Assembly (NCBI GenBank): GCA_024697885.1
Contig: JAILSA010000179.1
Coordinates: 1 to 13,517, forward strand
Source of the DNA: Eubacterium sp.
GTDB taxonomy: Bacteria; Bacillota; Clostridia; Lachnospirales; Lachnospiraceae
DNA: 13,517 nt
Reading direction: 5' to 3'
Below are positions 867 to 10,087 of this stretch, in pieces; within the stretch, counting starts at the first letter, position 1; the number at the start of each line of letters is the position of its first letter. The position numbers were made by a program, and so were the translations under genes. The notes beneath the pieces were generated by a model. The model was not told where the DNA came from and did not search any database. It was given only the letters and a program-made list of their open reading frames with translations.

Positions 867-926
867 AGGAAGAGGACAACCAGAGAGAGACTTTCGTCTC
901 AAGTCGGTTGGACTCTTCCTATTTTT
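867..926. terminator. Bidirectional terminator hairpin, family A copy 1
   Basis: AGGAAGAG (867-874) pairs with CTCTTCCT (913-920). GA (875-876) faces GA (911-912), a potential tandem sheared G-A pair. CAACC (877-881) pairs with GGTTG (906-910). An internal loop AGAGA (882-886) / AAGTC (901-905) follows, then GAGAC (887-891) pairs with GTCTC (896-900) around a 4-nt loop. A T-tract at 922-926 serves the plus strand; AAAA at 862-865 serves the minus strand. It lies between the convergent acetyltransferase and response-regulator genes and shares its core with the hairpins at 4082-4146 and 9479-9541. Confidence 0.7.
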
Positions 927-932
927 AGACTA
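906..932. repeat. 27-bp inverted repeat, left copy
   Basis: The reverse complement of 906-932 matches 4041-4067 at 26 of 27 positions. The copy covers the right arm of terminator hairpin copy 1 (906-920) plus 12 bp of flank. The two copies are in opposite orientation and enclose the response regulator, kinase and metK. Confidence 0.8.
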
Positions 933-934
933 TC

Positions 935-950
935 TTAGTGCGACAGCCCC
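935..950 (-). repeat. Solo half of hairpin family B
   Basis: The plus-strand sequence TTAGTGCGACAGCCCC is the exact reverse complement of 7230-7245, the left arm of the complete hairpin at 7228-7276. A T-tract follows at 952-958. No matching left arm is present nearby, so this is an orphan half: either a broken terminator or an end left by a lost element. Confidence 0.6.
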
Positions 951-989
951 CTTTTTTTATGTAATCCTCTTTTCCCTTTTAGCATGGCA

Positions 990-2864: not shown

Positions 2865-4043
2865 ATGGGTAAAATTTTATTTACTTCTGAATCCGTTACT
2901 GAGGGACATCCAGATAAAATCTGTGACCAGATTTCTGATGGTATTCTGGACGCCCTTTTAGCACAAGACCCTATGAGCCGCGTGGCCTGCGAGACCACCA
3001 CTTCCACCGGGTTTGTTATGGTTATGGGAGAAATCACTTCCAAGGCCAATATTGATATTCAAAAAATCGTCAGAGACACCGTTTGCCAGATCGGCTACGA
3101 TTCCTCTGACAAGGGATTTGACGGCAACAGCTGTGCCGTTATGGTAGCCCTGGACAAGCAGTCCGCTGACATCGCCATGGGCGTGGACAAGGCTCTTGAG
3201 GCCAAGCTGACTGACTCCCAGATCGACGCCATCGGCGCCGGAGACCAAGGTATGATGTTTGGCTATGCCACAGATGAGACCGATGCCTATATGCCATACC
3301 CAATCTATCTGGCCCACAACCTGTCCCGCCAATTGACCAAGGTCCGCAAGGATGGAACTCTTGCCTACCTTCGTCCAGACGGCAAGAGCCAGGTGACTGT
3401 GGAGTACGACGAAAACGGCAAGCCAATCCGCATTGATGCCATTGTTGTCTCCAGCCAGCACAGCGAAGATGTGGAGTGGGAGCAAATCAAGACAGACATC
3501 CGCAAGCATGTCATCGACCCTATTATTCCAGCCAACCTCATTGATGAGGACACCAAGATCTACATCAACCCAACAGGCCGCTTCGTAATCGGCGGTCCTA
3601 ATGGAGACAGCGGTTTGACTGGAAGAAAAATTATCGTAGACACCTACGGCGGTTGGGCACGCCACGGCGGCGGCGCCTTCTCCGGCAAGGATCCAACAAA
3701 GGTAGACCGTTCTGCTGCCTATGCAGCAAGATACGTTGCCAAAAACCTGGTAGCTGCAGGCCTGGCCAAAAAAGCGGAAATCCAGCTTTCCTATGCCATC
3801 GGAGTAGCAGCTCCAACCTCCGTCCGAGTAGACACCTTCGGCACAGGCAAGTTGCCTGAGGAAAAATTAGTAGACATCGTCAACGAAAACTTCGACTTGA
3901 GACCAGCGGGAATAATCCAGATGCTGGACTTGAGAAGACCGATCTACAAACAGACCGCTGCCTACGGACACTTCGGACGCACCGATTTAGATTTACCATG
4001 GGAAAAATTAGATAAGGTAGAGACCTTGAAGAAATATCTATAG
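2865..4043 (+). CDS. metK: S-adenosylmethionine synthase (MetK)
   Basis: This 392-residue cytoplasmic enzyme makes S-adenosylmethionine from methionine and ATP. The length and motifs are typical: [20 protein letters not shown] at residues 6-25 with ATP-binding H15 and D17, GAGDQG at 124-129 followed by [10 protein letters not shown], and the glycine-rich phosphate loop [16 protein letters not shown]. The start at 2865 has GGAGG 6 nt upstream; the frame is open back to 2763, but that would put the promoter inside the gene. It is monocistronic and divergent from the kinase operon. Its TAG stop is also the first three bases of the 27-bp inverted repeat, and a strong hairpin terminator follows. 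Family assignment is essentially certain. Confidence 0.98.
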
Positions 4044-4067
4044 TCTAAAAACAGGAAGAGTCCAACC
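4041..4067. repeat. 27-bp inverted repeat, right copy (with solo hairpin arm)
   Basis: This matches the reverse complement of 906-932 at 26 of 27 positions. It begins with the metK stop codon and contains AGGAAGAGTCCAACC (4053-4067), one arm of the family A copy 1 hairpin. The partner arm is absent here; a different complete family A hairpin begins 15 bp further on. Confidence 0.8.
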
Positions 4068-4081
4068 ATAGTCCAGCAGAA

Positions 4082-4146
4082 AAAAAATACTACCAGCGAG
4101 AGACTCCAAGGCGAATGCCTTGTGTCTCGAGTCGGTAGTATTTTTT
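4082..4146. terminator. Bidirectional terminator hairpin, family A copy 2
   Basis: A 13-bp outer stem pairs 4082-4094 with 4134-4146, with A6 and T6 at its ends, so it can terminate in both directions. Inside it are an internal loop AGCGA (4095-4099) / GAGTC (4129-4133), stem GAGAC (4100-4104) with GTCTC (4124-4128), loop TCC (4105-4107) / GT (4122-4123), stem AAGGC with GCCTT, and apical loop GAAT (4113-4116). It fills the space between metK and the nrdD stop codon, which it touches. Confidence 0.85.
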
Positions 4147-6336
4147 CTATAAATGCAACACCCTATCCTTTATCTCCTGGGTTCTTCCCTGATTCCAGAA
4201 CTGGGTTCCTATATATCCACAGGTTCTTCTGGCCACAAAGAGGGTTGCCTGGTCGCGGTTGCCACAATTTGGGCACTCCCAACAAAGTTTTCCATTGGCC
4301 TCTTCCTTGATCTGGATTTCTCCGTCATAGCCACATTTTTCGCAGAAGTCGCTCTTGGTATTGAGCTCTGCATAAATAATATTGTCGTAAATATATCTCA
4401 TAACAGACATAACTGCATCTGTGTTATCCTGGAGGTTTGGCACCTCTACATAGGAAATAGCTCCGCCTGGTGACAGCTTCTGGAAGTCCGACTCAAACTT
4501 GAGTTTGCTAAAAGCATCAATTTCCTCTGACACATGGACATGGTAGCTGTTGGTGATGTAGTTTTTGTCCGTTACACCCTCAATCATGCCAAAGCGCTTC
4601 TGCAGGCACTTGGCGAACTTGTAGGTGGTGGACTCCATTGGAGTTCCGTATACAGAATATCCTATATCCTCTGCCGCTCTCCACTCCTGACACTTGTCAT
4701 TGAGCTTTTGCATAACAGCCAGGGCGAATTTCTTGCCCTTCTCGGAGGTATGGGTCTGGCCCAGCATGCGGACGCACATCTCGCAGATTCCTGCGTATCC
4801 CAAGGATATGGTGGAGTAGCCGCCAAAGAGGAGTTTGTCGATCTTCTCACCTTTTTTCAAGCGGGCCAGGGCGCCGTGCTGCCAGAGGATTGGGGCCACG
4901 TCAGAAACGGTTCCCAAAAGTCTCTCGTGGCGGTAGCGAAGGGCCTTGTGGCAAAGCTCCAACCTCTCGTCCAGGATTTTCCAAAACTGCTCAAGGTCTC
5001 CCTCGGAGGAGCAGGCCACATCTACCAAATTGATAGTAACTACACCCTGGTTGAAGCGGCCGTAGTACTTGCGGCTTCCGTCTGGGTTGCGAACTCCGTC
5101 CTCGCTGGTTGGGAAGGAGCGGCATCCCATACATGGGTAGACATCTCCCTTTTTGATTTCCTTCATAACCTTAGCAGAAATATAATCTGGCACCATTCTC
5201 TTGGCGGTGCACTTGGCAGCCAGCCTAGTCAATTCATAGTACTTAGAATCTTCATTAATATTGTCCTCGTCCAAAACATAAATCAGCTTAGGAAAGGCAG
5301 GTGTAATCCAAATTCCCTTTTCATTTTTAACACCCTTGATTCTCTGGTGCAAAACTTCCTCAATAATCATAGCCAGGTCATCCCTGGTCTGTCCCTCAGG
5401 CACCTCGTCCAGGTACATGAACATGGTGACAAATGGGGCCTGACCGTTACAGGTCATAAGGGTAATGAGCTGGTACTGGATGGTCTGGATTCCACTCTTT
5501 ACCTCCAGATACAGTCTCTTTTCTGTGATTTTATCTATAATTTTTTCATCTAAAGACTCGCCGCACTCCTGGCGCTCCTCAATTACCTGCTGGCGGATTT
5601 TCTTTCGACTGACATCGACAAAAGGAGCGATGTGAGCCAGGGTAAAGGACTGGCCGCCGTACTGGTTGCTGGCCACCTGAGCCACGATCTGGGTGGTGAC
5701 GTTGCAGGCAGTAAAAAAGCTCTGGGGTCTGTCGATCATAGTCTCACTGATTACCGTGCCATTTTGCAACATGTCCTCCAAATCAATGAGATCACAGTTG
5801 TGCTCCCTCTGGGCAAAATAGTCGGAGTCGTGAAAATGGATAATACCCTTTTCGTGAGCCTCCACAATATCTTGTGGCAAGAGCATGCGCCTGGTCAAAT
5901 CCTTGCTGACCTCTCCTGCCATATAATCACGCTGGGTGGAGTTGATCACCGGGTTCTTGTTGGAATTCTCCTGGTTGACCTCCTCGTTGATGTTGTCAAT
6001 CAGGGCCAAAATTCCGTTGTCCGTAGTGTTGGACTTACGGGTCAACTCTCTCTTATAGCGGTAGCGCACATACTTCTGTGCCACCTCATATCCACGCATC
6101 TCCATGATTCCGGTCTCCACCATATCCTGGATGTCCTCTACATGAACTGCATGGGTCATTTCCTCAATCTTGCGAGTCACATTCTCGGCCACAGCCTTGA
6201 CCTGGTACTCGTTCATTTGGTGGAGCTTGTCCACCTCATTGTTGGCAGCTGCAATCGCATTTTCAATCTTTGAAAAATGAAATTCAACCTCTTCCCCGTT
6301 TCGTTTGATTACTCGAATCTTTGCCACTTTTCCCAT
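4147..6336 (-). CDS. nrdD: Anaerobic ribonucleoside-triphosphate reductase (class III, NrdD)
   Basis: This 729-residue glycyl-radical enzyme reduces ribonucleoside triphosphates to deoxynucleotides without oxygen. An N-terminal ATP-cone (about 4-95; VIKRNGEEVEFHFSKIENAI) gives allosteric control. The catalytic core has the cysteine motif PCMGCRSF. Near the C-terminus, CEKC and CWECPNC supply cysteines for the structural zinc site, followed by RRTCGYIGTQFWNQGR. The glycine after that cysteine (G707) is the expected radical residue by analogy with the E. coli enzyme. The start at 6336 has AGAGG 7 nt upstream. The activase gene nrdG, often adjacent, is not in this window, so it must be encoded elsewhere. 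Its leader holds candidate NrdR boxes. Confidence 0.97.
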   Translation of the reverse strand: MGKVAKIRVIKRNGEEVEFHFSKIENAIAAANNEVDKLHQMNEYQVKAVAENVTRKIEEMTHAVHVEDIQDMVETGIMEMRGYEVAQKYVRYRYKRELTRKSNTTDNGILALIDNINEEVNQENSNKNPVINSTQRDYMAGEVSKDLTRRMLLPQDIVEAHEKGIIHFHDSDYFAQREHNCDLIDLEDMLQNGTVISETMIDRPQSFFTACNVTTQIVAQVASNQYGGQSFTLAHIAPFVDVSRKKIRQQVIEERQECGESLDEKIIDKITEKRLYLEVKSGIQTIQYQLITLMTCNGQAPFVTMFMYLDEVPEGQTRDDLAMIIEEVLHQRIKGVKNEKGIWITPAFPKLIYVLDEDNINEDSKYYELTRLAAKCTAKRMVPDYISAKVMKEIKKGDVYPCMGCRSFPTSEDGVRNPDGSRKYYGRFNQGVVTINLVDVACSSEGDLEQFWKILDERLELCHKALRYRHERLLGTVSDVAPILWQHGALARLKKGEKIDKLLFGGYSTISLGYAGICEMCVRMLGQTHTSEKGKKFALAVMQKLNDKCQEWRAAEDIGYSVYGTPMESTTYKFAKCLQKRFGMIEGVTDKNYITNSYHVHVSEEIDAFSKLKFESDFQKLSPGGAISYVEVPNLQDNTDAVMSVMRYIYDNIIYAELNTKSDFCEKCGYDGEIQIKEEANGKLCWECPNCGNRDQATLFVARRTCGYIGTQFWNQGRTQEIKDRVLHL

Positions 6337-7185: not shown

Positions 7186-7227
7186 AAATACGAACTAATT
7201 GTGAGCAATTTTTCGCCACCACACAAG

Positions 7228-7276
7228 AAGGGGCTGTCGCACTAACAATTAAAAAATTGTTAGTGCTCAGCCCCTT
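7228..7276. terminator. Bidirectional terminator hairpin, family B
   Basis: AAGGGGCTG (7228-7236) pairs with CAGCCCCTT (7268-7276). An internal loop TCG/CT follows, then CACTAACAATT (7240-7250) pairs with AATTGTTAGTG (7255-7265) around an AAAA loop. It lies between two convergent genes, 3 nt before the end of the receiver gene. A weaker hairpin, AATTG-TGAG-CAATT followed by TTT, lies at 7197-7213 just after the upstream stop codon. Confidence 0.8.
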
Positions 7277-7279
7277 TCC

Positions 7280-7651
7280 TTACTTTGCTGAACCTATCAC
7301 ACTCTTTAAGAGATCCATATCGATAGGTTTTTTTAACACCCCACTAATCCCGGATACTTCCAAGGCACGATTGACCACATCATAGGTGATACCGGTCACA
7401 GCTATAATAGGAATTTTTCTGGCGTCCGACCGATCGGCCTGACGAATCCTTGCCGCCACTTCCGTTCCCTTTTTCTCTGGCATCATGATATCCATGAAAA
7501 TGAAATCAAATTCACCTTCTCCGGAAGACTTGAAAATATCCAAGGCATCTTCGCCGTTTAGGGCAGTGACTGAATCCACTCCCAAAAGCTCCAGTTTTTT
7601 GGACAACTCCAGGGCAGAAACCTTGTTGTCATCCACAACTAATGCCTTCAT
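7280..7651 (-). CDS. Stand-alone CheY-like receiver domain protein
   Basis: This 123-residue protein consists of a receiver domain only. It has the acidic pair D7-D8, phosphoacceptor D54 in FIFMDIMMPEKKG, T86 in IIAVTG and K108 in GVLKKP, so it should accept a phosphoryl group. It lacks any output domain and must act by protein contact or as a phosphate shuttle. The sequence is closer in style to receivers detached from hybrid kinases (MDIMMP...IIAVT) than to classical chemotaxis CheY. The start at 7651 has GGAAGG 8 nt upstream; an upstream in-frame TTG at 7675 would overlap this site. No kinase or chemotaxis gene is adjacent, so its partner is unknown. Confidence 0.88.
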   Translation of the reverse strand: MKALVVDDNKVSALELSKKLELLGVDSVTALNGEDALDIFKSSGEGEFDFIFMDIMMPEKKGTEVAARIRQADRSDARKIPIIAVTGITYDVVNRALEVSGISGVLKKPIDMDLLKSVIGSAK

Positions 7652-9478: not shown

Positions 9479-9541
9479 AAGTGCCCTACCAGCGAGAGAC
9501 TCCAGGACCAATGTCTTGTGTCTCAAGTCGGTAGGGCACTT
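9479..9541. terminator. Bidirectional terminator hairpin, family A copy 3
   Basis: A 12-bp outer stem pairs 9479-9490 with 9530-9541. An internal loop AGCGA (9491-9495) / AAGTC (9525-9529) follows, then GAGAC with GTCTC, loop TCC/GT, inner stem AGGAC (9504-9508) with GTCTT (9513-9517, one G-T), and apical loop CAAT. An A-run (9475-9480) lies on the left and a T-rich stretch on the right. It separates the convergent surface-protein and nitroreductase genes. Confidence 0.85.
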
Positions 9542-9550
9542 CTATTTTAT

Positions 9551-10087
9551 TTAACAAATCTTCAAAATATCCGCTGGTGTTTTTCTCTTTGGCATATCTG
9601 CTCCCTGGCTGGCATATCCCACCGCAATAACTGCCACGATGGTCTCTGCCTCTGGCACCTGCAAGAACTGGCGGATGGCCTTCTCGTCACGGATTCCCAT
9701 GATCAGAGTGTCAAGGCCCATATCCTTGGCCTTCAAAACCAGGTTCTCGTTGTGGAGTCCCAAATCATAGAAGCCCCAGCCGTTACCTGCCTCGTTGTCC
9801 GGCTGTCCCTCGCGGTTAAAACCTGCTCTGTTGGCCACAAATGTAGTCACAATCAGAGCCGCTCCCTTGGAGTTGTTGGCATTGAACTCTGGCAGACATT
9901 TTGCCAGGAAGTCCTCAATCTTGTCCTCAGACAGGATTGCGTAATATCTGGCGGTCTGGGAGTTTTTCCAGGATGGCGCCAAAATCGCTGCCTCTACCAT
10001 CTCCTCCACCTGGGCCTGAGTTACCTTCTTGCTGGCATCATAGTGGCGGATGCTTCGTCTCTGCTCAATTACTTGTGAAAATTCCAT
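9551..10087 (-). CDS. Nitroreductase-family flavoprotein
   Basis: This 178-residue protein is expected to bind FMN and reduce a nitro, quinone or similar substrate with NAD(P)H, probably as a dimer in the cytoplasm. The N-terminal QRRSIRHYDASKKVT (residues 9-23) is the usual phosphate-contacting RRSxRxF/Y motif. LAPSWKNSQTARYY (37-50) fits the second flavin-contact region. A central GFYDLGLHNENLVLKAKDMGLDT helix precedes the C-terminal VAVIAVGYAS strand. The start at 10087 has GGGAGG 10 nt upstream. The KDPG aldolase gene ends 60 bp upstream on the same strand with no convincing terminator between, so read-through from it is possible. The physiological substrate cannot be deduced. Confidence 0.92.
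   Translation of the reverse strand: MEFSQVIEQRRSIRHYDASKKVTQAQVEEMVEAAILAPSWKNSQTARYYAILSEDKIEDFLAKCLPEFNANNSKGAALIVTTFVANRAGFNREGQPDNEAGNGWGFYDLGLHNENLVLKAKDMGLDTLIMGIRDEKAIRQFLQVPEAETIVAVIAVGYASQGADMPKRKTPADILKIC

Follow-up and report, generated by a model that had tools for sequence, protein, structure and literature searches.

Three gaps between convergent genes of a Lachnospiraceae contig hold hairpins with the same internal core, which raises the questions of whether they belong to one dispersed family and of what keeps their arms paired. The window, i.e., the whole 13,517-nt stretch analysed here, is a single contig of a draft genome (G000; 1.79 Mb, 302 contigs, 79.5% complete). Gene calling on the window gave 12 genes, with Pfam support for an acetyltransferase, a response regulator with a kinase, a second response regulator, a KDPG aldolase, a ketoacyl synthase and an AMP-binding enzyme; ten proteins were searched, one of them from outside the window, and two matched no Pfam family. 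An earlier note had described the three tail-to-tail hairpins as sharing one architecture, and their coordinates, stems and facing motifs are indeed as claimed. The relevant features are the following:

867..920, plus strand: copy 1, subtype A; outer stem 867-881/906-920, with two mismatched bases inside
882-905, plus strand: core of copy 1; AGAGA 882-886 facing AAGTC 901-905, stem GAGAC 887-891/GTCTC 896-900, loop TTTC
921..951, plus strand: right flank of copy 1, common to other subtype A copies; contains TGCGACAGCCCC
939-950, minus strand: GGGGCTGTCGCA beside copy 1, which is TGCGACAGCCCC when read on the plus strand
2865-4043: gene that we take to be metK
4042..4067, minus strand: what remains of a subtype A right arm, standing alone between metK and copy 2
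4082..4146, plus strand: copy 2, subtype B; outer stem 4082-4094/4134-4146, loop GAAT
4095-4133, plus strand: core of copy 2; AGCGA 4095-4099 and GAGTC 4129-4133, stem GAGAC 4100-4104/GTCTC 4124-4128
4107-4112/4117-4122, plus strand: second stem of copy 2
4147-6336: gene presumed to be nrdD
7225..7280, strand not assigned: hairpin of the fourth gap, without the core; GGGGCTGTCGCA at 7230-7241, equal to the subtype A end sequence
9479..9541, plus strand: copy 3, subtype B; outer stem 9479-9490/9530-9541, a second stem, loop CAAT
9491-9529, plus strand: core of copy 3; AGCGA 9491-9495 and AAGTC 9525-9529, stem GAGAC 9496-9500/GTCTC 9520-9524
9551-10087: gene assumed, from its sequence as for the two above, to encode a nitroreductase

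On either strand, copies 1-3 fold far more stably than their dinucleotide shuffles (z -5.5 to -8.9; 0 of 200 shuffles as good). The likeness of their cores is not chance, since the pattern GAGAC-N{2,30}-GTCTCRAGTC has 21 matches in G000 and its reversed form has none; the further genomic copies that the earlier note expected thus exist, and more are found across the genus. A first covariance model, built from 19 copies, recovers all 21, many of them on both strands, together with four weaker hairpins. These copies fall into two subtypes. In subtype A, which includes copy 1, the whole hairpin is kept and the flanks mostly so; correspondingly, the outer stem and flanks of copy 1 recur in other G000 copies. 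In subtype B, which includes copies 2 and 3, the common parts are the core together with the second stem and some five closing pairs, and the rest of the outer stem is site-specific but still mostly paired. The view of the three copies as one kind therefore stands for the core, but copy 1, with its mismatched outer stem, represents a separate subtype. Likewise, the NAAT apical loops of copies 2 and 3 are confirmed (GAAT and CAAT), whereas their outer stems, noted as unrelated in sequence, have the closing pairs in common with other copies and are site-specific only beyond them. The fourth gap does contain a different hairpin, as had been noted, yet this begins with the GGGGCTGTCGCA that also borders copy 1 on the other strand.

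Several further observations concern these sites. The lone arm at 4042-4067 equals the reverse complement of 906-931 at 25 of 26 bases, as if an older element there had been lost or replaced. The core-free hairpin of the fourth gap belongs to a second dispersed type, GGGGCTGTCGCACTAAC..GTTAGTGC.., seen at 7225-7280 of the window and at L431:1497-1542, and also in gaps behind genes in a relative, G054. Finally, reading the core strand of subtype A gives a short open frame (799-1086 in the window, plus strand; copies in G000 and G054), which in several copies comes after GGAGGAATG; the frame is probably fortuitous, because two G000 copies differ by one base in core length, which shifts it.

The stems vary in a concerted manner. 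In 119 distinct rows, aligned by fitting to the model and hence leaning towards its structure, two-sided changes occur at 22 of 24 stem pairs, standard pairs fill 95.6% of 2801 stem cells, slid registers pair in 28-42%, and 0 of 500 shuffles reach any of five covariation measures. The covariation predicted from the window is thus borne out. The invariance of the GAGAC/GTCTC stem within G000 is a product of the search pattern chosen; in relatives this stem changes to GAACC/GGTTC, GAGC/GCTC or GGGC/GCCC, and the facing motifs remain unchanged. What is conserved is an asymmetric core in which AGNGA faces RAGTC, the most frequent pairings among the 119 being AGCGA/GAGTC (54), AGAGA/GAGTC (19) and AGTGA/GAATC (17). 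In many copies, though not in those with AGAGA, a C-G/U-A pair that covaries occupies the middle of this core. The conserved internal loop of the earlier note is accordingly real as a conserved core but not as a loop throughout: it is better seen as A.C, then G.U, then a C-G or U-A pair, followed by tandem G.A and A.G mismatches. As to which strand matters, wobble counts and folding energies point in different directions. The 2801 cells comprise 2653 Watson-Crick pairs, 26 G.U on the core strand, 54 A.C and 68 others, and the 54 A.C cells are G.U on the gene-sense strand; yet, of 137 copies, only 28 fold more stably on the gene-sense strand than on the core strand.

How widely the family occurs was addressed by a profile search of 39 genomes of the genus with a second covariance model, built from 30 copies. 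It is present in 11 of them and has no match in 28, and its copy number is uneven, being high in five genomes: 83 rows in G015, 47 in G044, 38 in G054, 24 in G000 and 12 in G045, followed by 6 in G013, 4 in G041 and 2 each in G014, G019, G051 and G052, some rows being a single hairpin read from both strands. In G015, several copies are located at the very end of a contig or close to it (C36, C52, C60, C84 and C112); the repeat has probably broken the assemblies, so that copy numbers in drafts are lower bounds. Outside the genus, a family-level sample of 299 genomes gave only single weak matches in G078 and G156, and an order-level sample of 392 genomes gave G078 again, weakly; these larger samples were searched with stricter filters, under which G000 itself falls to 16 and 12 rows, which makes absence outside the genus less certain. 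When named species were scanned with the pattern, 93 stretches resulted, 80 of which are covered here. Among the matches listed, several per record occur only in the Lachnospiraceae MAGs HAN042 and HAN043, Eubacterium sp. SUG160 and Lapin-011 bin5, which are genomes already counted (G015, G044, G045 and G052), and every other record has one. Rescoring of 16 named loci with the model left one strong match (SUG160) and two weak ones (E 0.008 and 0.055). Comparison with Rfam, which the earlier note had called for, gave nothing at gathering score for the window (five sub-threshold rows at E 5 or better) and no match for eight further loci. A literature search, with most subscription papers outside its reach, returned no description of the hairpin family. 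Carriage by viruses was considered and rejected: of 61 loose pattern matches in viral contigs, one is weak by the model (E 0.074) and 60 give nothing at E 0.1, and the strict pattern has no match there; copy 1 has no match among plasmids, nor copy 2 among phages. The family has so far been seen in one Lachnospiraceae genus.

Within these genomes, the elements take a defined place and orientation: they follow closely on a stop codon, and their core is on the strand opposite to the gene concerned. Of the 147 copies used, out of 148 compiled from ten genomes as a subset of all copies, 117 have the end of an antisense gene no more than 120 nt from the hairpin, and 6 have only a sense gene end at such a distance; the remaining 24 have neither gene end nearby or stand at edges. 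In the four main genomes, the hairpin is a median of 21-44 nt away from the stop codon of the antisense gene. The expected enrichment at convergent 3' ends is likewise found, as convergent gaps account for 70 of the 101 that contain an element vs. 9 of the 250 that do not, the latter figure being biased downward because the loci were picked around elements. At the hairpin base, the fraction of T is 0.51-0.57 on the gene-sense strand and 0.49-0.56 on the core strand, compared to 0.26-0.29 at random places. This anatomy predicts intrinsic terminator activity and, where tracts flank both sides, fits bidirectional terminators. A consensus terminator scan, which counts loops only up to 8 bases, does not list copies 1-3. 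Neighbouring copies less than 600 nt apart form 17 pairs, one in tandem and 16 inverted and facing outward (10 in G015, 6 in G044).

Identical copies and a sharp repeat edge indicate recent spread in at least one relative, G054. There, 11 copies with identical 70-mers are found at different places, and identical copies stand behind different genes. Most subtype A copies of G054 have a sharp gene-proximal edge, GGGGCTGTCGCACTAAGACAGTC, and their far side is a mosaic of other repeats; due to this mosaic, no defined pair of edges is available in which target duplications could be sought. The 12-mer GGGGCTGTCGCA occurs 47 times in G054, five times in G000 and once in G045 (a reversed control has one match in all) and is absent from G015 and G044. 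The window accounts for two of the five G000 places: one borders copy 1 and the other opens the fourth-gap hairpin. Such edges are limited to subtype A in G054, and subtype B copies of G000 lack them. Together with the patchy occurrence across the genus, this supports the proposal that the hairpins spread as a repeat unit. As a separate observation, L098, L101 and L430 of G054 contain long intergenic stretches of several other short repeats, some in tandem, beside elements.

In two genomes, the paired arms reach well beyond the common hairpin. In G044 and G015, pairing continues for a median of about 40 nt past the 13-bp stem and begins inside the adjacent coding sequence at 17/25 and 12/14 element ends, respectively, vs. 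0/53 and 0/19 element-free ends. The corresponding figures are 4/16 vs. 0/9 ends with no element nearby in G000, and 2/29 vs. 2/66 in G054; ends near the element of another gene pair into coding sequence in 1/13 cases in G044, 2/7 in G054 and 1/14 in G000. Up to 36 nt from the stem, arms match their own partners better than those of other loci in both G044 (32 copies) and G015 (39 copies), with 0 of 2000 permutations as good in either; by the same test, own-partner matching is absent in G000, G054 and G045. At 36-90 nt the effect persists in G044 and G015 through few copies, with 4 of 32 standing out in the former and 2 of 39 in the latter, one of these two convincingly. The test excluded L132 (G044), a near-duplicate of L150 (G015). 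The proteins of these two loci are 99-100% alike, while the genomes otherwise differ by 10-40% at compared proteins, which reflects either a recent transfer or a mis-binned contig. That all long arms of G044 and G015 are copies of the adjacent gene was considered and rejected, as many carry a common, diverged end motif able to supply stop codons. Because of this motif, the claim of inverted gene copies rests on the permutation test and on one site compared with its orthologs, L141:2540 in G044, out of about five loci with strong copies of coding sequence. In a small sample of nine orthologous gene ends bearing elements in two species, 14 of 18 identities between near and far arms exceed both between-species values.

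At L141:2540, the gene beside the G044 copy encodes 359 amino acids, terminates in IYNDKWKELMAQ and has matches in 26 of the 39 genus genomes. The protein end is the same or similar in at least 17 other loci of this gene, and 19 loci outside G044 give no match to the element model. In G051, which is 88% identical, 24 nt separate the gene from the same convergent neighbour, vs. 337 nt with two elements in G044; in the latter, the far arm beyond the hairpin contains the last codons once more, inverted and slightly decayed. Since the gene end is conserved and the orthologs are element-free, the coding end is ancestral, and the element and the inverted copy are derived. A similar comparison for nrdD found no element at 12 loci, but these do not provide a clean empty site, as the sequence after the gene differs there.

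Collectively, this evidence makes it reasonably probable that the hairpins constitute a dispersed family of terminator-like palindromes, comparable to SPRITE and REP elements, whose arms are kept paired by selection together with template switching. Together with their A/T tracts, they would serve the near gene as intrinsic terminators, and both genes where the gap is convergent. The arms would stay paired partly through selection and partly through template switching, in which the strand being synthesised folds back at the hairpin, so that the near arm, sometimes plus coding sequence, is copied into the far arm; this would account for the inverted copies and the matched arms. The template-switching part of this reading rests on two genomes, as own-arm matching is confined to G044 and G015. 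Neither the invariant core nor the fixed orientation is explained by template switching, which suggests a recognising protein: the core may be retained through protein recognition, perhaps by a mobilising enzyme acting on single-stranded DNA.

Alternatively, the elements might be miniature transposons (MITEs) moved in trans by a DDE-type transposase, with the hairpin as part of the body and the long arms as terminal repeats. The recent spread, the sharp GGGGCTGTCGCA edge in G054, where opposite copies lie 330-1200 bp apart, and the similar, diverged end motif in the G044 and G015 arms all agree with this, but subtype B copies of G000 have no such ends, the target-flank copies are inverted rather than direct, and no autonomous partner appears among the three protein families searched (Y1_Tnp, RVT_1 and PDDEXK_2). 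Nor do neighbouring pairs look like the two ends of one transposon, as the interiors of 16 inverted pairs are unlike beyond the arm ends, except at a near-identical locus of G015 and G044. We regard a MITE as unlikely. None of the three protein families tracks copy number. A PDDEXK_2 nuclease-family gene was considered as a motor because in G054 it is flanked by a pair of inverted GGGGCTGTCGCA hairpins with a spacing of 1.2 kb (L429:1550-2900); the family is present in 31 of the 39 genomes but not in G000 or G052, and it was rejected. A reverse transcriptase was rejected likewise, RVT_1 occurring in 17 of 39 genomes and in none of G000, G015, G044 and G045. For a classical REP family moved by a RAYT (a Y1 tyrosine transposase), sites behind genes and between convergent genes, as the accessible text of PMC3733652 describes for REPs, and the mismatched palindrome would be expected. 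However, 0 of 147 copies carry GTAG or CGTC in the 8 bases adjoining the stem at either end. In these draft genomes Y1_Tnp, which has four matches in G054, is missing from G044 and G045, fragmentary in G000 and G015, and present in the copy-free G046, G006, G017 and G024, leaving this explanation a very slim chance.

A regulatory RNA in the 3'-UTR, its core the site of a host RNA-binding or processing protein and selection acting at the RNA level behind particular genes, would accommodate the fixed orientation to the gene, the covariation of stems around an invariant core and the excess of wobble on the gene-sense strand (54 A.C vs. 26 G.U cells, read on the core strand). It sits poorly with the 28 of 39 genomes without a match, the identical copies behind different genes, the element-free orthologs of one bearer gene, the better folding of gene-sense RNA in only 28 of 137 copies and the fact that an unsystematic look at the bearer genes reveals no common function; such a role appears rather improbable. 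We give a similarly low chance to a foldback element that spreads in a manner of its own. In this view, a core-specific protein would bind the single-stranded DNA form of the hairpin at gene ends, and copying of the adjoining gene end would be primed by the hairpin's 3' end. The element would thus assemble its palindrome out of host sequence and acquire long arms with coding sequence in them, all the while acting as terminator of the host gene. That three ordinary terminators merely look alike is scarcely conceivable: terminator-like hairpins are common at gene ends, and the fourth gap has one without the core, but the 21 forward and 0 reversed matches in G000 and the matches across the genus contradict coincidence.

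The dispersed terminator-like family favoured here has its closest counterpart in SPRITE of the pneumococcus, a dispersed terminator-like repeat enriched between convergent genes, formed by an 18-bp duplex followed by a U-rich tract and limited to few related species (PMC3049150, from the part of the article available). Like SPRITE, the present family has many dispersed copies (21 in G000; 38-83 rows, some read from both strands, in G054, G044 and G015), consists of a terminator-like hairpin with a T-rich tract, is over-represented between convergent genes and is confined to few related species. Compared by description, and as far as that text goes, it differs in that the core is asymmetric and invariant, the stems covary, the antisense orientation is fixed and the arms are matched. 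REPs, in the accessible part of PMC3733652, are 20-40 bp long and tagged with GTAG or CGTC. The likeness to REPs and BIMEs described there includes mismatched, multi-copy palindromes behind genes, single or in close inverted pairs, that can supply stop codons, and mosaic repeats surround the elements in G054; by contrast with REPs as portrayed there, the hairpins here span 50-80 bp, are untagged and are tracked by no RAYT. Template switching has been proposed to create inverted copies and to fix both sides of a stem at once (PMC8794818, as seen in part). The own-site matching of arms and the few G.U pairs fit this proposal, whereas, relative to the hairpins treated in that portion, the process would here affect dozens of dispersed terminator-like repeats and extend into coding sequence, and it is known by its footprints only.

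In some of these bacteria, an unannotated repeat family therefore stands behind dozens of genes, and its copies at contig ends mean that it may break assemblies. With more than 100 strongly covarying natural hairpins that have a fixed core, a fixed polarity and, in two species, site-specific arms, the set allows one to ask how perfect pairing is kept, by selection or by template switching, and how dispersed repeats turn into terminators of their host.
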